Positions 32,835-46,216 of a stretch of DNA of 64,000 nucleotides are shown one piece after another. Under the pieces are notes generated by a model. The model was not told the DNA's origin. It saw nothing but the letters and a program-made list of their open reading frames with translations, and did not search any database. Every line of letters starts with the position of its first letter. Position 1 is the stretch's first letter. The stretch lies in assembly GCA_036275915.1 (NCBI GenBank), contig DASUCV010000010.1:62001-126000 (forward strand). The letters are read 5' to 3'. The position numbers and the translations under genes are program-made. Origin of the DNA: Candidatus Polarisedimenticolaceae bacterium (GTDB taxonomy: Bacteria > Acidobacteriota > Polarisedimenticolia > Polarisedimenticolales > DASRJG01).

Positions 32835-35800
32835 ATGCATCAGGGACGTGTTGTCGTCACGGTAGCGATCGTTCTCCTTTCCGCGCTCGCGGCCCGACCG
32901 GCCGGACGTGACGCGTCGCGCTTTCACGTGGCGACCGGGCCCGGCGGGGTGCCCTGGGTCGCGGGCGGCGTCCCGCGCGGCGACGACCCCGGCGACGTGG
33001 TGATCGCGACGTCGGATCCCGGCGGGCACACGCTCGGCGATCTCTTCTGGATCGGTGGGCCCGGGCGTGACGACGTGCGGGCGCTCGCGGTCGACGGCTC
33101 GGGCCAGGTGTGGATCGCGATCACGAACGACACGCCCTCGCCCCACGACGACGTCCTCAAAGTTTCGCCGCGGGGCGACGTGCTGGCGACATGGGCGGCG
33201 CCGAAGGGTGCGGAGGTCGATGCCCTCGCGGTCACGGCGGACGGCGGCGTCGTCGCGGCCGGGTCGTCCCTCAACTTCCTCGATCGCGACGCGGCGTTGG
33301 TGCGCGCGCTGCCGCTTCAGGCGGGAGACTTCGCGACCTCGGTCGCGATCGCGATCGACGGATCGGTCATCGTGGGAGGCTCGTCGACGAACGGTGGGTT
33401 CGTCGAAAGCTCCGGCAGCCCGTGGCGTGTCGCGACGTCGCCGTCTCGCCGGCTCGAGCGCGCGCCGGACGGCGGCGTTCAGAGCCTCGACGCCTTCCAG
33501 CGCGTGACGCGCGTCGATCCACTGACGGGGCTCGTGTCGCCGGTGGCCGACTCGGACATCGCGCCGGTGCTCCGCCTCCTCTCCGGCCGGTCGAGCGTTG
33601 CGCGCCTCCGAGGCGTTCCGATCGACGATGCCTCGGCGACCGGGGACGGCGCCTCATGGATCGTCGGCGAGAGCGCGGGCACGCTTCCCGAGAAATCCCT
33701 CGCCATCCCCGGGACGCAAGCGTTCCTCACGCGCGATCCCGTGGCGCCGACGGCGGTCTGCCCCGGCACGGTCAACTTCGACAACTCGGCCGGCACCGGA
33801 GTCTGGGAGACGCCGGCGAACTGGGACACGAACACCGTGCCGGGCCCCACCGACGACGTGTGCATCGACGGATTCACGGTGACGATGGCGGTCGGTGCGC
33901 AGTCGGTGCGCACGCTCTCCGCCGGAACGACCGGCGTGCTCAACGTCGGGGCGGGCTCGCTCGACATCGCGCAGGACGCTTCGCTCCGCGCGTTCAATCT
34001 CGGCGGCGGAGCGGTGACCGGCGCGGGGACGATCGTGATCAACGGCCTCTTCACGTGGTCGAACGGCCAGCTCAGCGGAACCGGAACGGTCACCGCCGCC
34101 GGTGGCACTGCCATCACCAACAGCCCCATGCTCGACGGGCGGCGCCTCATCAACCCGAGTGGGCAGACGATGACGTACGCGTCGGCCAACACCGGCTTCA
34201 ACTTCGCCAACGGGGCGGTCCTCCAGAACGACGGAACCTTCGATTCGCAGGCGGACAACCTTCTCCAGTGGACGGGCGCCGGCACCATCGGCGCGCTCCA
34301 GAACAACGGCACGTACAAGAAGTCGGGCGGCGGCGGCAGCTCGATCTTCTCGGTCGACGTGACGAACGCCGGGGCGATCCAGGCGCAGAGCGGGACGGTG
34401 CGGTTCTCGCGCGACCTCGCCTCCACGGGAACGGTCTCGGCATCGTCGGGCGCGACGCTCGAGTTCCTCACGGGGACGCACACGCTCAATCCGGCGCCGG
34501 CGGTACCGGCCGGCGCGACGCTCGTCGCCGACGGCGGAACCGTCACGTTCGGCGGCGCCTACAACCCGCTCGGCACGACGACGGTCAGCTCGAACAGCCT
34601 CACGCTGAACGGCTCGCCCAACGTGCTCGCCAGCCTTTCCCAGAGCGGCGGAACGCTGACCGGGCCGACCGATCTCTCCGTGAGCGGGTCGTGGACGTGG
34701 TCGGGAGGCGCGCTCAGCCAAACGGCCACCGGTACGAAGGCCACGGCCCTCGGCGGGATCGCGCTCTCCGGCAGCCAATCGCTCGATGGACGCCGCCTCG
34801 TCAATCCGGCCGGGCAGACGATCGCCTACCCGACTCTCAATTCCGCCTTGAGCCTCTCGAACGGTGCCGTCCTCCAGAACGACGGCACGTTCGACTCGCA
34901 GTCGGACAACACCATCCAGTGGACCGGCGTCGGAACGGTCGGCACGCTTCAGAACAACGGCACCTACAAGAAGTCGGGTGGAACCGGAACGTCCCAGCTC
35001 GCCGTCACGGTGACGAGCCCGGGAGCGATCCAGGCCCAGACCGGGACGGTGCGATTTCAGCGCGACTTCGCTTCGACCGGCGCCGTCTCGGCTTCCTCCG
35101 GTGCCACTCTCGAATTCATCACCGGTACACACACGTGCACTCCGGCGCCGACGGTGGCGGCCGGCGCGACGGTGCTCATCGACGGCGGCCTCGTCACCTT
35201 CGGCGGCGGCTACAACCCGCTCGGCGCGACCTCGATCAGCGCGTCCACTCTTACGTTGAACGGCTCTCCGAACGTGCTGGCGAGTCTCTCTCACAGCGGT
35301 GGGACGCTGACCGGTGCGACCGACCTTTCGGTGACCGGCTCATGGGCATGGTCGGGGGGCTCACTGTCGCAAACCGCTCCGGGCACCAAGGCGACGGCGC
35401 AGAGCGGCATCGCGCTCTCCGGCGGCCCATCGCTCGACGGACGCCGTCTCGTCAATCCTGCCGGACAGTCGATCACCTTCCCGTCGACCAGCGCCGCCTT
35501 CAACCTCTCGAACGGAGCCGTCTTCCAGAACGACGGGACGTTCGACTCGCAGTCGGACAACGCGATGCAGTGGACCGGCGCCGGCACCATCGGCGCCCTC
35601 CAGAACAACGGCACCTACAAGAAGTCCGCCGGCACCGGCACCTCGACGCTCTCGGTCGCCGTCACGAACCCGGGGACGATTCAAGCGCAGACCGGGACGG
35701 TCCGCTTCCAGCAGGATCTCGGCTCGACCGGAACGGTGACCGCATCTTCGGGGGCGACGCTCGAGTTCACGCAAGGCACGCACACGCTCAATCCGGCGCC

Positions 35801-38800
35801 GACGGTAACGGCGGGCGCGACGCTCCTCGCCGACGGCGGCGCGGTGACCTTCGGCGGAAATTACGATCCACTCGGCGCGACGATCCTCAGCTCCAACCTC
35901 CTGACGCTCAACGGCGCGACCAACGTACTCGCGAGCCTCTCCCAGAGCGGCGGCACGCTGACCGGGCCGGCCGACTTCTCGGTGGCCGGGGCGTGGACAT
36001 GGTCCGGCGGCACGCTCAGCCAGACCGCCGCGGGGACCAAGGCGACGGCGCAGAGCGGCATCGCGCTCTCCAGCGGCATGACCCTCGACGGCCGGCGGGT
36101 CGTCAACCCGGCCGGCCAGACGATCACCTTCCCGTCGCAGAACGCCGCCTTCAACCTCTCGAACGGCGCCGTCCTCCAGAACGACGGCACGTTCGACTCG
36201 CAGTCCGACAACCTGATCCAGTGGACCGGCGCCGGCACCATCGGCACCCTCCAGAACAACGGCACCTACAAGAAGTCCGCCGGCACCGGCACCTCGACGC
36301 TCTCGGTCGCCGTCACCAATCCCGGGACCATCCAGGCCCAGACCGGAACGGTCCGTTTCCAACAGGATCTCGGCTCGACCGGAACGGTGACCGCATCATC
36401 GGGGGCCAAGCTCGAGTTCGTCAACGGAACGCAAACGCTGAATCCGGCGCCCACGGTGCCCGCGGGTGCGACGCTCATCGCCGACGGCGGGGCGGTCACG
36501 TTCGGCGGCGCGTACAACCCGCTCGGCGCGACGGTGCTCAGCTCGAATCTCCTCACGATGAACGGCTCGCCGAACGTGCTCGCGAGCCTCGCCCAGAGTG
36601 GCGGCACGCTCACGGGATCGGCCGACTTCTCCGTGACCGGCTCGTGGACCTGGTCGGGCGGCGCGCTCGGCCAGGGCGCCTCCGCGGCCAAGTCCACGGC
36701 GCTCGGCGGCATCGCGCTCTCCGGCGGCATGACGCTCGACGGGCGCCGCCTCATCAACGCCGCCGGACAGACGATCACGTACCCGACGCCCAGCACCGCC
36801 CTCAGCCTCGGGGACGGCGCCGTCCTCCAGAACGACGGCACCTTCGACTGTCAGGCCGACAACTACCTGCAGTGGAGCGGCGCCGGCGCGATGGCCGTCC
36901 TCGAGAACAACGGAACGTTCCTGAAGTCGGCCGGCAGCGGTGTCACGACCCTCGCGCTGACGACGAACAACTCGGGCACGATCCAGCCCCAGACCGGCAC
37001 GATCCGCTTCCAGCAGAACCTGAGCTCGACCGGAACGCTGACCGCCTCGGCGGGCGCCACGCTCGAGTTCCTCCAGGGGACGCACATCTGCGACCCCGCG
37101 CCGACGGTGCCCGCCGGCGCGACCGTGCTCCTCGACGGAGGGAGCGTCACTTTCAACGGTGCCTACAACCCCCTCGGTGTGACCTCGCTCGTCACGAGCC
37201 AGCTCGTCCTCAACGGCTCGCCGAACGTGCTCGCGAGCTTCTCCCAGACCGGCGGCACGCTCACGGGCTCGGCGGACTTCACCGTCAGCGGCGCGTGGGG
37301 CTGGTCGAGCGGCGTGCTCAGCCAAACGGTGCCCGGCACCAAGGCGACGGGACTCTCGGGGATCGCGCTCTCGAATACGCCGCAGCTCGACGGGCGGCGC
37401 CTCGTCAACCCCGCGGGGCAATCGATGATCCTCGCCGGGACCAACAGCGGCTTCACGCTCTCGAACGGTGCCGTGCTCGAAAATGACGGCACACTCGACT
37501 CTCAGGCCGACAACTCGCTGCAGTGGAGCGGTGCAGGCGCCGTCGGCTTGATCGAGAACCACGGCCTCCTGACGAAGTCGCTGGGAGGGGGAACGAGCGC
37601 GCTCGCCGTCGACGTCCACAACCTGGGAACGATCGACGCGGTCAACGGGACGCTCCAATTCGGTCGCGACGTGACGCAGACGGCGGGCACGACGCGCCTC
37701 AACGGCGGAACGATCGGGTCGTCGTCGAGCTACACGCTCCAGGGCGGAACGATCGCCGGCACGGGAACTTTCAACGGCACGCTCACGAACGCCGGCGGTG
37801 CGATCGCACCCGGCTTCTCGCCGGGGACGATCACGATCGCCGGATCCCTCGTGCAAACGAGCGGCTCCTACGCGGTCGAGCTCGGCGGTCTGACCGCCGG
37901 CACACAGTACGACCGTCTCGACGTCACGTCGTTCACGGGCGATGCCTCTCTCGGGGGAACCCTCGACGTCACCGCAATCGGCGGTTTCACGCCGTCGCTC
38001 GGCGACGCGTTCACGGTCATGACGTACAAGTCGCACAACGGCACCTTTTCGGCGATCAATGCGCCCAACCTCGGCCCGACGCTCACCTGGAGCGTTGCGT
38101 ACAACCCGACCGCCGTGATCTTGTCCGTCGTCCCGGTCGCGAACCCGGATCTCGCGGTGACGATCGGCGACAGTCCGGATCCCGTCGTCGTCGGCCAGGA
38201 CCTGACCTACACGATCACGGTCACGAACAGCGGCACGGCGGTCGCGACGTCGGCGACGCTGAGCGATCCGCTGCCGGCGAGCGTCGCCTTCCAGTCGGTC
38301 CAGACGACCCTCGGGGCGTGCAACCAGTCGGCCGGCACCGTCGCTTGCAACTTCGGCGACATGGCGGTCGGCGCCTCGGCGACGGTGACGGTCGTCGTCA
38401 CGCCGAGCGCGGCGGCCGAGCCGTCGATCGACAACACGGCGACCGCCGCGACGACCGCGACCGATCCGGTGCCGGCAAACGACGCGGCAACCGCGACGAC
38501 GAACGTCGTCCCGCCGCCGACCGCCGACCTCTCGATCGCGCTCGCCGACAGCCCCGACCCGGTGAACGCTGGCTCGAACGTGACCTACACCGCGAGCGTG
38601 ACCAACGCCGGACCCGATCCGGCGACGACCGTCGTCGCGACCGTTGCGGTCCCGGCCGGCGCTGCGTTCGTCTCGGCGACGGGAACCGGGTGGGCTTGCA
38701 ACTTCGCATTGCCCACGGTGACCTGCACGCGCGCGACGCTCGCCGTGGGCGCCGCACCTGCGATCGCGGTCGTCGTCACCGCGCCCGCCTCGGGCCCGCT

Positions 38801-40655
38801 CGCGGGCGGCGCCGCGGTCAGCGCGGCGGAAGCCGATCCCACACTTCCCAATACCGCGACCGCCACGACCGCGGTCACGCCGGTCGCCGATCTCTCGATC
38901 ACGAACACCGACGCTCCCGATCCGGTCGGCGTTGGTGCTGCGCTCACCTACACGATCACCGTCACGAACCATGGGCCGAGCAACGCGACCGCCGTCGCGG
39001 TGACCGACGCCATCCCCGCGGGCACGACGTTCCAGTCGGCCGCGGGAAGCGGCTGGACCTGCGCCTTCGCGGCGCCGACCGTGACCTGCACACGTCCGAC
39101 GCTCGCCGTCGCAGCGGCGCCTGCGATCACGCTCACCGTCACCGCTCCGTCGAGCGGCGGCGCGATCTCGGACACCGCGTCCGTCAGCGCGGGGGAGACC
39201 GATCCGGTGCCGGCGAACAACAGCGCCACCGCCGGCACGAACGTCACCGCCTCCGCGGATCTCTCGATCACGAACGTCGACAGCCCCGACCCGGTGAATG
39301 CCGGATCGAACGTGACGTACACGATCACGGTGTCGAATGCGGGGCCGAGCGCCGCGACGAGTCTCATCGTCGACGGTGACATCCCGACCGGCTCGACGTT
39401 CCAGTCCGCCTCGGGCACGGGCTGGACTTGCGGATTCAATGCGGGAACCGTGACCTGCACGATGCCGACGCTCGCCGTCGCATCCGCCCCCGCGATCACC
39501 GTCGTGGTCACCGCGCCGGCGAGCGGGTCAGCGATGCAATTCCGTATCGAGGTCGGCTCGAGCACCGCCGACGCGAATCTGAGCAACAACGCCGCGACCG
39601 CCGACACGGCGGTCGCGATGGTTGACGATCTCTCGATCGTCAAGACCGCCTCCGCATCCTCGGTCGCTTCCGGAACCAACTTCACGTACACCCTCGCGGT
39701 GTCGAACGCCGGACCGTCGGCCGCATCGTCCGTCACCGTCACGGACCCGCTCCCCGCGGGCCTGACGTTCGTCAGCGCCAACGGCACCGGCTGGAGCTGC
39801 TCGCAAGCGGCAGGGACGGTGACGTGCACGCGATCGAGCCTTGCGGTCGGGGCCGCCCCCGCGATCGCGATCACGGTGAAGGCCCCGGCCAGCCCCGGTA
39901 CGATCGTGAACACCGCGACGGTTGCGGCCGCCGCCGATCCCAACGCCGCGAACAACAGCTCGTCGGCGAGTGTCGACGTCACCACCTCGGCCGACCTCCG
40001 CATCACGAAGACCGCGAGCGCCGCCACGATCACCGATGGATCGACGGTGACGTACCTCCTGAGCGTCCGCAACCTCGGTCCATCGACCGCGACGAACGTC
40101 GTCGTCACCGACCTTCTCCCGTTCGAGGCGACCTTCGTCTCGGCGAGCGGCAGCGGGTGGAGCTGCACGCCTTCGCGCCGCGGCGGTTTCGACGTCGTGT
40201 GTACGCGCGCCACGCTCGGGGTGACCACGGCACCCCCGATCACGATCGTCGTCACCGTCTCGACGGGTGGGAAGGGTGGCACGGTCTGCAACAGCGCAGA
40301 CGTGGCGAGCGACGCCGCGGATCCGGTGACGACCGACAACACCGACCAGGTCTGCATCAACGCCGTCCCCGCAGGGACGTGCAATAGCGTGCAAGACCTG
40401 ATCGAGCAGGTCGACGACAGCGGCATCCCCGCCGGCCGAAAGGCGGTGTGGGACAAGTTCCTCACGACGACGCTCGGGGCGTCGAATCTCGGCCAGCACA
40501 CCGTCGTCGCTCAGCGCCTCTCGCTCTTCACGAAGCAGGTCCGCGCCGCTCAGGCCACCGGCGCCGTCGATGCGGAGACCGCGGACTCGCTCGTCACGTG
40601 CGCCGATGCGCTGCGGCAGCAGGCCACCGGAGGGGCCGGGAAGGCGCGGCGCTGA
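32835..40655 (+). CDS. Giant secreted repeat protein (217-residue repeats plus DUF11 modules)
   Basis: A 2,606-residue exported protein with signal peptide MHQGRVVVTVAIVLLSALAARPAG; a GTG 4 codons upstream is possible. Residues 25-290 have propeller-like SBBP-type strands. Residues 390-1630 contain six tandem repeats of about 217 residues, with signatures LDGRRLVNPAGQ, LQNDGTFDSQSDN, GTLQNNGTYKKS, IQAQTGTVRFQ and GGTLTG, a beta-helix-like pattern. An autotransporter-associated-type strand region follows (GTFNGTLTNAGGAIAPGFSPG). Six DUF11 Ig-like repeats (ADLSITNxDSPDPV, residues about 1770-2510) come next, then a helical C-terminal module (CNSVQDLIEQVDD to ADALRQQ). No LPXTG or PEP-CTERM anchor is visible. 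It is probably a cell-surface or matrix protein. Confidence 0.88.
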   Translation: MHQGRVVVTVAIVLLSALAARPAGRDASRFHVATGPGGVPWVAGGVPRGDDPGDVVIATSDPGGHTLGDLFWIGGPGRDDVRALAVDGSGQVWIAITNDTPSPHDDVLKVSPRGDVLATWAAPKGAEVDALAVTADGGVVAAGSSLNFLDRDAALVRALPLQAGDFATSVAIAIDGSVIVGGSSTNGGFVESSGSPWRVATSPSRRLERAPDGGVQSLDAFQRVTRVDPLTGLVSPVADSDIAPVLRLLSGRSSVARLRGVPIDDASATGDGASWIVGESAGTLPEKSLAIPGTQAFLTRDPVAPTAVCPGTVNFDNSAGTGVWETPANWDTNTVPGPTDDVCIDGFTVTMAVGAQSVRTLSAGTTGVLNVGAGSLDIAQDASLRAFNLGGGAVTGAGTIVINGLFTWSNGQLSGTGTVTAAGGTAITNSPMLDGRRLINPSGQTMTYASANTGFNFANGAVLQNDGTFDSQADNLLQWTGAGTIGALQNNGTYKKSGGGGSSIFSVDVTNAGAIQAQSGTVRFSRDLASTGTVSASSGATLEFLTGTHTLNPAPAVPAGATLVADGGTVTFGGAYNPLGTTTVSSNSLTLNGSPNVLASLSQSGGTLTGPTDLSVSGSWTWSGGALSQTATGTKATALGGIALSGSQSLDGRRLVNPAGQTIAYPTLNSALSLSNGAVLQNDGTFDSQSDNTIQWTGVGTVGTLQNNGTYKKSGGTGTSQLAVTVTSPGAIQAQTGTVRFQRDFASTGAVSASSGATLEFITGTHTCTPAPTVAAGATVLIDGGLVTFGGGYNPLGATSISASTLTLNGSPNVLASLSHSGGTLTGATDLSVTGSWAWSGGSLSQTAPGTKATAQSGIALSGGPSLDGRRLVNPAGQSITFPSTSAAFNLSNGAVFQNDGTFDSQSDNAMQWTGAGTIGALQNNGTYKKSAGTGTSTLSVAVTNPGTIQAQTGTVRFQQDLGSTGTVTASSGATLEFTQGTHTLNPAPTVTAGATLLADGGAVTFGGNYDPLGATILSSNLLTLNGATNVLASLSQSGGTLTGPADFSVAGAWTWSGGTLSQTAAGTKATAQSGIALSSGMTLDGRRVVNPAGQTITFPSQNAAFNLSNGAVLQNDGTFDSQSDNLIQWTGAGTIGTLQNNGTYKKSAGTGTSTLSVAVTNPGTIQAQTGTVRFQQDLGSTGTVTASSGAKLEFVNGTQTLNPAPTVPAGATLIADGGAVTFGGAYNPLGATVLSSNLLTMNGSPNVLASLAQSGGTLTGSADFSVTGSWTWSGGALGQGASAAKSTALGGIALSGGMTLDGRRLINAAGQTITYPTPSTALSLGDGAVLQNDGTFDCQADNYLQWSGAGAMAVLENNGTFLKSAGSGVTTLALTTNNSGTIQPQTGTIRFQQNLSSTGTLTASAGATLEFLQGTHICDPAPTVPAGATVLLDGGSVTFNGAYNPLGVTSLVTSQLVLNGSPNVLASFSQTGGTLTGSADFTVSGAWGWSSGVLSQTVPGTKATGLSGIALSNTPQLDGRRLVNPAGQSMILAGTNSGFTLSNGAVLENDGTLDSQADNSLQWSGAGAVGLIENHGLLTKSLGGGTSALAVDVHNLGTIDAVNGTLQFGRDVTQTAGTTRLNGGTIGSSSSYTLQGGTIAGTGTFNGTLTNAGGAIAPGFSPGTITIAGSLVQTSGSYAVELGGLTAGTQYDRLDVTSFTGDASLGGTLDVTAIGGFTPSLGDAFTVMTYKSHNGTFSAINAPNLGPTLTWSVAYNPTAVILSVVPVANPDLAVTIGDSPDPVVVGQDLTYTITVTNSGTAVATSATLSDPLPASVAFQSVQTTLGACNQSAGTVACNFGDMAVGASATVTVVVTPSAAAEPSIDNTATAATTATDPVPANDAATATTNVVPPPTADLSIALADSPDPVNAGSNVTYTASVTNAGPDPATTVVATVAVPAGAAFVSATGTGWACNFALPTVTCTRATLAVGAAPAIAVVVTAPASGPLAGGAAVSAAEADPTLPNTATATTAVTPVADLSITNTDAPDPVGVGAALTYTITVTNHGPSNATAVAVTDAIPAGTTFQSAAGSGWTCAFAAPTVTCTRPTLAVAAAPAITLTVTAPSSGGAISDTASVSAGETDPVPANNSATAGTNVTASADLSITNVDSPDPVNAGSNVTYTITVSNAGPSAATSLIVDGDIPTGSTFQSASGTGWTCGFNAGTVTCTMPTLAVASAPAITVVVTAPASGSAMQFRIEVGSSTADANLSNNAATADTAVAMVDDLSIVKTASASSVASGTNFTYTLAVSNAGPSAASSVTVTDPLPAGLTFVSANGTGWSCSQAAGTVTCTRSSLAVGAAPAIAITVKAPASPGTIVNTATVAAAADPNAANNSSSASVDVTTSADLRITKTASAATITDGSTVTYLLSVRNLGPSTATNVVVTDLLPFEATFVSASGSGWSCTPSRRGGFDVVCTRATLGVTTAPPITIVVTVSTGGKGGTVCNSADVASDAADPVTTDNTDQVCINAVPAGTCNSVQDLIEQVDDSGIPAGRKAVWDKFLTTTLGASNLGQHTVVAQRLSLFTKQVRAAQATGAVDAETADSLVTCADALRQQATGGAGKARR
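34005..37710 (+). repeat. Six tandem 651-bp coding repeats
   Basis: The LDGRR codons begin at 34131, 34782, 35433, 36084, 36735 and 37386, all five intervals being exactly 651 bp. A second anchor, the LQNDGTFD-type motif, begins at 34221, 34872, 35523, 36174, 36825 and 37476 with the same exact intervals. Units differ at many positions, so the array is not freshly duplicated, except that units 3 and 4 are close to identical over long stretches. The last unit diverges in its second half. Confidence 0.93.
38143..40377 (+). repeat. Six DUF11-type tandem repeats in the giant protein
   Basis: Repeats of about 120 residues start at about 38143, 38522, 38885, 39253, 39625 and 39990. Each has the form DLSIxxxDxPDPV, then LTYTITVTNxGPS, VTDxxPAGxTFxSAxGxGWxC, TCTRxTLAVGxAPAI and a final NxAT. 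Unlike the 651-bp array upstream, their spacing varies (363-379 bp), so length is not fixed here. Confidence 0.85.
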
Positions 40656-40658
40656 CCT

Positions 40659-41939
40659 TTACGCCGGCCGCCCGGCGAACAAGCTCGCAACGTAGGGCAG
40701 CTCGACTTTGCCCTCGTGCTCGTGCGCGTCGAACAGACGATCGAGCGCCGCGACCATCTCGTCGTGCCGCGGCTGGCCGGCGCCGGGAACGTACGACGAC
40801 GACACGAGGCGCGCGCGCAGGCCGGCGCGGTCGAGCACTTGCACATTGTCGAAGTCGTGCTTCTCGTACGGCGCACCGAAGAACGCGCCGATCTCCTGAT
40901 CCGATACGTTCTCGTGCCGCACCTTGAGGTAGTCGGTCGCGAACTCGCGGATGAGCGCTTCGTACGCTGCTGCGAACGGCGTCACATCGGGCTGGCGGAT
41001 GTTCCAGATCAAGCCGGCAGCGCCGCCGGCCTTCAGGATGCGAAGGCACTCCGTGCGGAAGCGCGGCTTGTCGAACCAGTGAAACGCCTGGGCGGCGAAG
41101 ACGAGGTCGACACCGCGGTCGGGCAGCGTCGTTGCCTCGGCGGGTGCATCGACGATGCGGAAGCGAAGATTCGATCCCAGCCTCGAGGCCGCGGCCTCGC
41201 GCATCACCTTGTTCGGCTCGACGGCGATCACGGTGCAGCCGGCGTCGAGGAACATCGCCGTCGAGATGCCTGTGCCGGCGCCGATGTCGGCGACCGTCCA
41301 TGACGGCACGAGCCCGAAGCGCGATCGCAGGCTCTCGATGACACCCGGCGGGTAGCCGGGCCGCCCCTTGACGTAATCGTCGACGCGGTTCGTGAAGCGG
41401 TTCGCAGTCGTGATCATGTGGTCCTCGATCGCCTTGTAGAAGATGACCGTCGTCTGCATCGTGCGGTTCTCATCGTAGAAGTATCCGGGAATCCGGCCGA
41501 CGCGGGTCCAGCCGAGCTTCTCGTAGAAACGTTCCGCGTAACCGCCCTCGCGCGTGTCGAGGATCAACATCGATCGTCCGGCGCGGCGCGCTTCCGCCTC
41601 GACGCCGTCCATGAGCATCTTGCCGACGCCGCGGTTCCGGTAGTCGGGGAGGACCGACACCTTCTGCACCTCAGCGCGATGCCGGCCGTTCTGCTTCGTC
41701 GCCAGCTCGAGCTGTGCGCTGCCGACGACGCGCCGGTCGTCGAGCGCGACGAGGACGATCCGCTCGCCGCGGCCGAGCGAGGCCTGGATCTGCTCCCAGT
41801 ACTCGGTCGCGTCGCCGTCAGAAAGCGGATGAAGGAAGCCGAGCGGGGCGCCTTGTCCCACCGTCGCTTGAAGCAGCGACCTCAGGCCGAGGGCATGCTC
41901 CCGCACCGTCGCCGGATCGGCGGTGACCAGCCGGATCAT
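40659..41939 (-). CDS. GNAT acetyltransferase fused to SAM-dependent methyltransferase
   Basis: A 426-residue two-domain protein. Residues 1-172 form a GNAT N-acetyltransferase with the acetyl-CoA motif VSVLPDYRNRGVGKMLM and the C-terminal block AERFYEKLGWTRVG. Residues 175-426 form a class I methyltransferase with motif I VADIGAGTGISTAMFLDAG, the acidic ribose loop AVEPN, and FAAQAFHWFD. Met175 (ATG at 41415-41417) begins a typical free-standing methyltransferase N-terminus and has GAGG 5-8 nt before it, so a separate shorter product is possible. It ends 3 nt after the giant protein gene, convergent. The substrates are unknown. Confidence 0.83.
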   Translation of the reverse strand: MIRLVTADPATVREHALGLRSLLQATVGQGAPLGFLHPLSDGDATEYWEQIQASLGRGERIVLVALDDRRVVGSAQLELATKQNGRHRAEVQKVSVLPDYRNRGVGKMLMDGVEAEARRAGRSMLILDTREGGYAERFYEKLGWTRVGRIPGYFYDENRTMQTTVIFYKAIEDHMITTANRFTNRVDDYVKGRPGYPPGVIESLRSRFGLVPSWTVADIGAGTGISTAMFLDAGCTVIAVEPNKVMREAAASRLGSNLRFRIVDAPAEATTLPDRGVDLVFAAQAFHWFDKPRFRTECLRILKAGGAAGLIWNIRQPDVTPFAAAYEALIREFATDYLKVRHENVSDQEIGAFFGAPYEKHDFDNVQVLDRAGLRARLVSSSYVPGAGQPRHDEMVAALDRLFDAHEHEGKVELPYVASLFAGRPA

Positions 41940-44419: not shown

Positions 44420-44656
44420 GACCCGCGACGGACATGGTGCAGCGTGACAAGCCGGATAACTACCCAGTCTTTTTGTCGCCGGATCGTGCGGACGACTTTG
44501 ATCTGCGGGCACCGACTCGAGGTTCTAAATTCGCTGCGCGTAGGTGCGCGTGATCACGAACTGTCACCAGAAACCCTCTCTGACCCGCCTCCAAGTGTGT
44601 ACCCTTGGGAAGCAATAGGCGTGGCGCGCACGGGCGCCAGAACAGGGAGGCAATTC

Positions 44657-45607
44657 ATGAAACGGTTCGCAGGAGTCTGGATCATGCTTGCCGGGTTGCT
44701 CGCAGCGTCCCCGGCGCTGGCTCACCACCTCAACGGATACGTACGCTGCGACTCCAACGGTAACGGGTCGCTCGACGGCGACGATCTTCCGATCGTCGGC
44801 GCGATCGTGAACGTGACGAATACCGCCGGCACGTTTACCGCTTCGGGCACCACGGACTCGAACGGCTTTTACGACATCGCCCTCCGTTCGGACGCCGCGG
44901 ACTACTACGTGGCGACTTTGGATCCGGCCAGCCTGCCCGCGGACGCGACCGTCGTGATCCCGTCGGGCGGAATCTTCTCGTTCGACTCGTTCTCGACCTC
45001 AGAAACGCGAGAGGACTGGCTCGTCAGCTCGGCCACGTGCCAAGCCGGCAACTGCTGGCTCACCGGCGGCGGCACGGTGTGGGACAAGCTCCTCAACCAG
45101 TTCGTGGCCACCAAGGATCCGAAGCTGAGCTTCGGCGGCAACGTGCACCCCGGCTGCTCGCCCACCTCGGGCGCCGGCGGCGACTGGAACGTCGTCGATC
45201 GAGGAAGGAGGCTGCACTTCCACGGCACCGATATCCCGACGGTCAGCTGCGGTAACGTGCCGGGAATTCCGCCGGGCTCCAACTCACCGAAGACCCCGTT
45301 CAATTACATCGAGTTCCAGGGAACGGGCTGGCTCCACGGCATCCAGGGGAACAAGACGAGCTACGATCTCGTTTACTTCTTCGCGCGTGCTGAGGATCGA
45401 AACGAGCCCGGCAGTCGCGGGGCCAACGATGGCGCGCTGATCGACCGGTTGTTCCTCCGCGTGTTCCTCGATCCGAACAACCCGATCGGCTCGACGGTCC
45501 TCCTCTTGGATACGGATGGGGACCCGTCCACCGTGGACCCGACACCGATCACCACCGGCAATCTTCAAATCCACATCAGCAGCTGCGACAACCCGCCTCT
45601 TCAGTGA
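44657..45607 (+). CDS. Secreted protein with SdrD-B-like domain
   Basis: A 316-residue exported protein (signal MKRFAGVWIMLAGLLAASPALA, cleavage about residue 22) with a strong AGGGAGG ribosome site; the frame extends upstream, but the export signal fixes the ATG. Residues 23-110 form an SdrD B/CNA-B-like Ig fold with a calcium-type loop CDSNGNGSLDGDD and the motif GTTDSNGFYDIAL. The remainder, with WLTGGGTVWDKLLNQFVATKDP, NVHPGCSPTSGAGGDWNVVDRGRRLHFHG and four or more Cys, resembles a secreted post-COAP-1-like beta-sandwich. Its function is probably surface or matrix related. A strong hairpin follows the stop. Confidence 0.72.
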   Translation: MKRFAGVWIMLAGLLAASPALAHHLNGYVRCDSNGNGSLDGDDLPIVGAIVNVTNTAGTFTASGTTDSNGFYDIALRSDAADYYVATLDPASLPADATVVIPSGGIFSFDSFSTSETREDWLVSSATCQAGNCWLTGGGTVWDKLLNQFVATKDPKLSFGGNVHPGCSPTSGAGGDWNVVDRGRRLHFHGTDIPTVSCGNVPGIPPGSNSPKTPFNYIEFQGTGWLHGIQGNKTSYDLVYFFARAEDRNEPGSRGANDGALIDRLFLRVFLDPNNPIGSTVLLLDTDGDPSTVDPTPITTGNLQIHISSCDNPPLQ

Positions 45608-45937: not shown

Positions 45938-46216
45938 ATGAGAAGCAAGACGAACGGCAAGCGCAGCTCGATCATGATCGCGATCGCGGCGGGGGCCCTG
46001 TCGATGGCGCTCAGCGCCGCCCCGGTGTCCGCCGCAGGCCATGGTCAAGGCCAAGGCCAAGGCCAGGGCCAGGGCCAGGGTCAGAACAACGGCAAGAACC
46101 CCGGCCAGGGCAAAGGGAACAAACACCGGTTCGTGCTAGGGATCAGCTGGTTCCACGAGCTCTTGGGGTCGGTGGGCAGCGCGCTCAAGCACGAGACGGG
46201 CGCCGAAGGCAATTGA
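45938..46216 (+). CDS. Small exported Gly-Gln-repeat protein
   Basis: A 92-residue protein with an export signal (IMIAIAAGALSMALSAAPVSAA, cleavage about residue 33). A low-complexity HGQGQGQGQ segment comes next, encoded by tandem hexamers GGCCAA/GGCCAG. After it is KNPGQGKGNKHRFVLGISWFHELLGSVGSALKHETG. The C-terminal amphipathic region is conserved-looking rather than low-complexity. GGGAGA lies 8 nt before the ATG. No family was recognised. The hexamer count could vary by slippage without shifting the frame. Confidence 0.6.
   Translation: MRSKTNGKRSSIMIAIAAGALSMALSAAPVSAAGHGQGQGQGQGQGQGQNNGKNPGQGKGNKHRFVLGISWFHELLGSVGSALKHETGAEGN

Follow-up and report, generated by a model that had tools for sequence, protein, structure and literature searches.

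What keeps the repeats of a large protein at exactly one length while their sequences drift apart? The question is raised by a 64,000-nt stretch of a Candidatus Polarisedimenticolaceae genome (assembly GCA_036275915.1, contig DASUCV010000010.1, positions 62,001 to 126,000 of the forward strand), here called the window, in whose own numbering all coordinates are given. One of its genes encodes a giant, probably secreted protein that carries an array of 217-amino-acid (aa), or 651-bp, units. A first-pass annotation had read the equal lengths as strict exclusion of insertions and deletions (indels), enforced by a rigid stacked fold with turns of equal length or by frequent gene conversion. We conclude instead that the array probably consists of beta-helix blocks of a surface rod that were duplicated in register, with an equal length that is mainly inherited and not dictated by the fold.

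As a repeat, the array lies far beyond chance expectation. Direct repeats at 34104, 34755, 35406, 36057, 36708 and 37359 give five spacings of exactly 651 bp each, as first reported, and an ungapped diagonal scan of the protein against itself at an offset of 217 aa returned a single unbroken segment (residues 424 to 1414, 71% identity). Cut at residue 416, the array resolves without gaps into five full units (U1 to U5) and 124 aa of a sixth (U6). The full units fill 217 columns of a MAFFT alignment with zero gaps; a one-residue gap given to U1 in some alignments falls where the unit was cut and leaves its net length unchanged. The limits of the array, at about 34068 and 37694, lie just within the span of 34005 to 37710 originally assigned to it.

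The units have nonetheless diverged, with pairwise amino acid identities of 0.59 to 0.86 among full units and 0.48 to 0.59 between full units and U6. Pairwise synonymous divergence (dS, Nei-Gojobori) is 0.39 to 0.84 among the five full units, where the ratio of nonsynonymous to synonymous divergence (dN/dS) is 0.19 to 0.56, and dS reaches 1.04 for pairs involving U6. Simple recent duplication, which near-zero dS would have indicated, is ruled out by the values for full units. Where two units share an amino acid, they use the same codon in 55 to 75% of cases, compared with 52 to 54% expected from codon usage at saturation (GC content at third codon positions, 0.90); U3-U4 stand at 0.75 versus 0.54 and U1-U2 at 0.55 versus 0.52. 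Given the dS and dN/dS values and the near-saturated codon identity, we infer that the units are old and under purifying selection, with U3 and U4 closer to each other.

An AlphaFold2 model of residues 313 to 1066, run with a seven-row alignment, predicts a continuous beta-solenoid with an uninterrupted run of short strands (predicted local distance difference test [pLDDT], 91). Strand positions in the model recur between units (92 to 96% DSSP agreement), and each unit contains 28 strand segments, or about nine coils if there are three strands per coil; within one unit, modeled strands and loops are of unequal length. Since 217 aa would thus span about nine turns and not one, the idea of equal-length turns is wrong in scale and does not explain the period, although the stacked fold as such is confidently predicted. 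VIA-align Z scores of 12 to 15 against solved beta-helices place the predicted structure among the parallel beta-helices, and the nearest solved structures are the beta-helical adhesins and passengers EtpA, Ag43, HMW1 and Hbp. Foldseek E values of the array model are weak (best, 0.026, for EtpA), as is usual for long solenoids, and a sequence search of the PDB gave only weak matches. A model of U5-U6 with the closing cap that follows (pLDDT, 84.7) had Foldseek matches at E values of about 1e-4 in Ag43, Ssp, SepA and pertactin. The cap looks like the C-terminal portion of an autotransporter passenger, yet no beta-barrel follows it.

Profile searches recovered relatives in 7 other genomes among 41 of the class Polarisedimenticolia and weaker ones elsewhere in Acidobacteriota, and a genome scan with a profile of the helix entry cap returned 28 loci. 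The gene is patchy (8/41 class genomes, its own included): no homologue was found by profile search in the nearest relative, a member of the same family. When named genomes were first scanned with a profile of the units, no relative emerged, and tblastn against phages yielded no match. One homologue comes from Ca. Polarisedimenticola svalbardensis, the type of class Ca. Polarisedimenticolia (PMC8528874). Repeated units and a partial last unit are common to all homologues, the closing cap to all those examined in the class, and the entry cap to all with a complete start. An actinobacterial metagenome-assembled genome outside Acidobacteriota (Microthrixaceae, JAOSKI010000004.1, locus L050) also has an entry cap related to this one, together with a 221-aa repeat.

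Unit length is where the homologues part company with the window protein. Intervals between anchor motifs are 214/214, 233/235, 214/199, 243/243, 216/216/216, 231/231/231 and 241/230 aa, so that indels are not strictly excluded: arrays of the same plan use other lengths, and some vary within a single array, the very result that the first-pass annotation had named as its refutation. The first two units of the G027 array differ by 2 aa, and unit length in the more distant protein L077 drifts over 174 to 181 aa. Besides small loop indels, length differences between proteins (12 to 26 aa, about one coil) cluster at unit positions 154 to 173. In L038 (genome G031), a 15-aa tandem duplication in the first unit (DVQSGTLSLGANGSS twice) underlies the 214/199 intervals, an example of a length change by about one coil inside an array.

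The phylogeny of the units, a check proposed with the first-pass annotation, was informative. A maximum-likelihood tree built from 29 units of eight proteins clusters them by protein, the partial last unit included, and a clade of all proteins' last units is rejected (approximately unbiased test, p = 9e-5). These results indicate that each lineage amplified or homogenised its own block. Furthermore, a coil near position 173 is missing in all window units, which also have inter-unit junctions of one length, as expected from copying one block.

Is the absence of indels surprising in itself? The answer depends on the reference rate chosen. In the window array, about 296 substitutions are inferred but no indel is seen. 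The adjacent DUF11 repeats of the same protein, which do vary in length as had been noted, show 7 to 8 indels in 324 substitutions; this rate predicts 6.4 indels in the window array (P for none, 0.0017), whereas the rate of six sister beta-helix arrays predicts 1.3 (P, 0.28), both P values being rough since events are treated as independent and counts are alignment-based. When compared at matched divergence, beta-helix units are indel-free up to 45% difference, whereas pairs of DUF11 repeats that differ by 40% have 0 to 2 indels per 122 aa. Taken at face value, the contrast with DUF11 is real, but sister beta-helix arrays are also indel-poor although their units have other lengths, and equality within the window array thus appears to stem mostly from descent from a common ancestral unit. 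Judging from the alignments, indels are rare in the beta-helix scaffold, though they occur. A FastTree-based between-array rate was much higher (9.3 indels expected in the window array), but long branches were likely underestimated and MAFFT gaps overcounted, and we do not rely on this contrast. A literature search on length-locked repeats found no direct treatment.

Several observations weigh against this reading. Adding the divergent L041 as a seventh array raises the expectation to 3.8 indels, which makes their absence mildly unlikely (P for none, 0.02, equally rough). The window array, the 216-aa array of Acidobacteria bacterium Mor1 and the 243-aa array of G028 are all indel-free at up to 45% divergence, and between-protein pairs from 49% divergence upward carry 3 to 13 gap events; some extra constraint, or an equality of units driven by recombination, may be involved. 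For recombination, near-saturated synonymous sites indicate that wholesale homogenisation was not recent. As to the fold, AlphaFold2 over-predicts beta-solenoids for perfect repeats but was found reliable for diverged natural ones (PMC11795689), a concern for the predicted solenoid although the window units have diverged.

Ongoing gene conversion or unequal crossing-over, which would keep copies alike and purge length variants, is an unlikely general explanation. U3 and U4 are alike in a run of 36 successive variable columns (unit nt 227 to 296; permutation p = 0.0005, uncorrected, with ten pairs tested), which is consistent with gene conversion, and the high codon identity of that pair and the clustering of units by protein point the same way. 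However, other unit pairs have no tract that is significant after correction, and the synonymous saturation of U1-U2 indicates that the process is weak or old across most of the array; of the conversion first proposed, one tract is supported. About equally improbable is that units within one array are held equal, at any lineage-specific length, by recombination or inter-unit packing, in which case indels would be suppressed within arrays relative to between them, and arrays would change length only as a whole.

A strict structural constraint, under which units stack or pack in register, every unit must measure 217 aa and selection removes indels, strikes us as slightly less plausible still. 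It would account for the deficit of indels relative to the DUF11 array, and the Mor1 array is likewise indel-free at 45% divergence. Against it stand the same-plan homologues with other and sometimes mixed lengths, the drift in the distant array, and a unit that comprises about nine unequal coils and not one turn. A collapsed or expanded repeat is very improbable, since, although repeats are well known to cause assembly errors, the copies differ at 305/651 positions, far above read-level ambiguity, and the same plan recurs in independent assemblies, including the single-contig Mor1 genome of about 6 Mb.

Altogether, we favor the duplication of beta-helix blocks in register. The array would serve as the rod of a large protein that is secreted and probably associated with the surface, with each unit a block of about nine parallel beta-helix coils and with conserved entry and closing domains capping the rod. 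One ancestral block was probably tandemly duplicated in register in the lineage of this protein; the copies would then have accumulated substitutions under purifying selection and occasionally exchanged sequence by conversion (U3/U4). Equal length would then reflect common descent from one block together with the rarity of indels in the scaffold, and lineages would have begun with blocks of different length, often about one coil apart. The number of copies would determine how long the rod is, and the rod probably holds the DUF11 domains at a distance from the cell. The signal-like N terminus, the predicted fold and the DUF11 tail suggest a surface location and a role as spacer or adhesin. The remaining features of the protein are given in Table 1.

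Table 1. Layout of the giant-protein gene, in window positions
Feature	Positions	Strand	Basis or remark
Giant-protein open reading frame, 2610 aa	32823..40655	+	likelier start ATG at 32835
Probable Sec signal peptide (MHQGRVVVTVAIVLLSALAARPA...)	32835..32905	+	read from translation
N-terminal region, perhaps a short beta-propeller	32906..33758	+	window Pfam matches sub-threshold only
Helix entry cap, motif CPGTxNFDN..NWD....DDVCI	33759..34067	+	conserved in homologues; AlphaFold2 model
Unit U1, 217 aa	34068..34718	+	repeat search, MAFFT alignment
Unit U2, 217 aa	34719..35369	+	repeat search, MAFFT alignment
Unit U3, 217 aa	35370..36020	+	repeat search, MAFFT alignment
Unit U4, 217 aa	36021..36671	+	repeat search, MAFFT alignment
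Unit U5, 217 aa	36672..37322	+	repeat search, MAFFT alignment
Partial sixth unit U6, 124 aa	37323..37694	+	partial last unit also in homologous arrays that were read to the end
Conversion-like tract in U3, 36 consecutive variable columns identical to U4	35596..35665	+	permutation p = 0.0005
Conversion-like tract in U4, counterpart of U3 tract	36247..36316	+	
Helix closing cap (..APGFSPGTITIAGS..GGTLDVTAIGGFTPSLGDAFTVMTY..)	37695..38141	+	alignment, AlphaFold2 model (pLDDT 84.7), Foldseek
Six DUF11 domains, spacing 126, 121, 123, 123, 122 aa	38145..40355	+	
C-terminal tail, no recognised family or sorting signal	40356..40652	+	

The six DUF11 stretches belong to that family (PF01345 / TIGR01451), with E values of 9.8e-124 and 3.2e-68. 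In the N-terminal region of homologues, DUF7948 and SBBP propeller repeats are significant in L048 (svalbardensis) and L051 (Mor1), and DUF7948 in L049. Next to the giant gene, the open reading frame at 40659 to 41939 (minus strand) combines GNAT acetyltransferase and methyltransferase domains in one protein, and another nearby at 44444 to 45607 (plus strand) has a domain of surface-protein type (SdrD B-like). A short tandem repeat of AGGCCA, about eight copies, lies at 46036 to 46084.

The array looks like ordinary helix-segment copying, not a new structural rule. What the locus documents is a patchy family of giant, predicted beta-helix proteins in Polarisedimenticolia, in which the length of a multi-coil block is fixed within some arrays and differs between lineages. 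The family may serve as a set for measuring duplication and homogenisation of tandem beta-helix blocks.

Among known systems, the closest in plan is EtpA, a two-partner secretion (TPS) adhesin (TpsA) of enterotoxigenic E. coli and the best Foldseek match of the window model. It is described as having four repeats, each of 228 residues and nine beta-helical turns, which are ascribed to internal duplication and recombination (PMC10284417), and it is thus a published precedent for multi-turn repeats. The window protein reveals no new fold or rule. Both proteins have large multi-turn repeats (228 versus 217 aa), predicted to form a beta-helix in the window protein, but there is no recognisable sequence relationship, the caps differ and the window protein ends in DUF11. 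No TPS (haemagglutination activity) domain was matched in the whole window protein or its N-terminal 312 aa, and no TpsB transporter gene was found among the ten neighbouring open reading frames scanned. Similarly, the passengers of autotransporters such as antigen 43, Ssp, SepA and pertactin are right-handed parallel beta-helices, yet type Va autotransporters carry a C-terminal outer-membrane beta-barrel where the window protein has DUF11 repeats and a short tail; a domain scan found no such barrel at its C terminus. Lacking the TPS domain and the autotransporter barrel, the window protein is not a member of either family, but it would work like their adhesin rods. Closer to home, the proteins of Mor1 (CP011806) and Ca. 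Polarisedimenticola svalbardensis share its entry cap, multi-coil units, partial last unit and closing cap, with fewer units of 216 aa and 241/230 aa, respectively, and with MopE-type metal-binding motifs at the C terminus in the place of DUF11.
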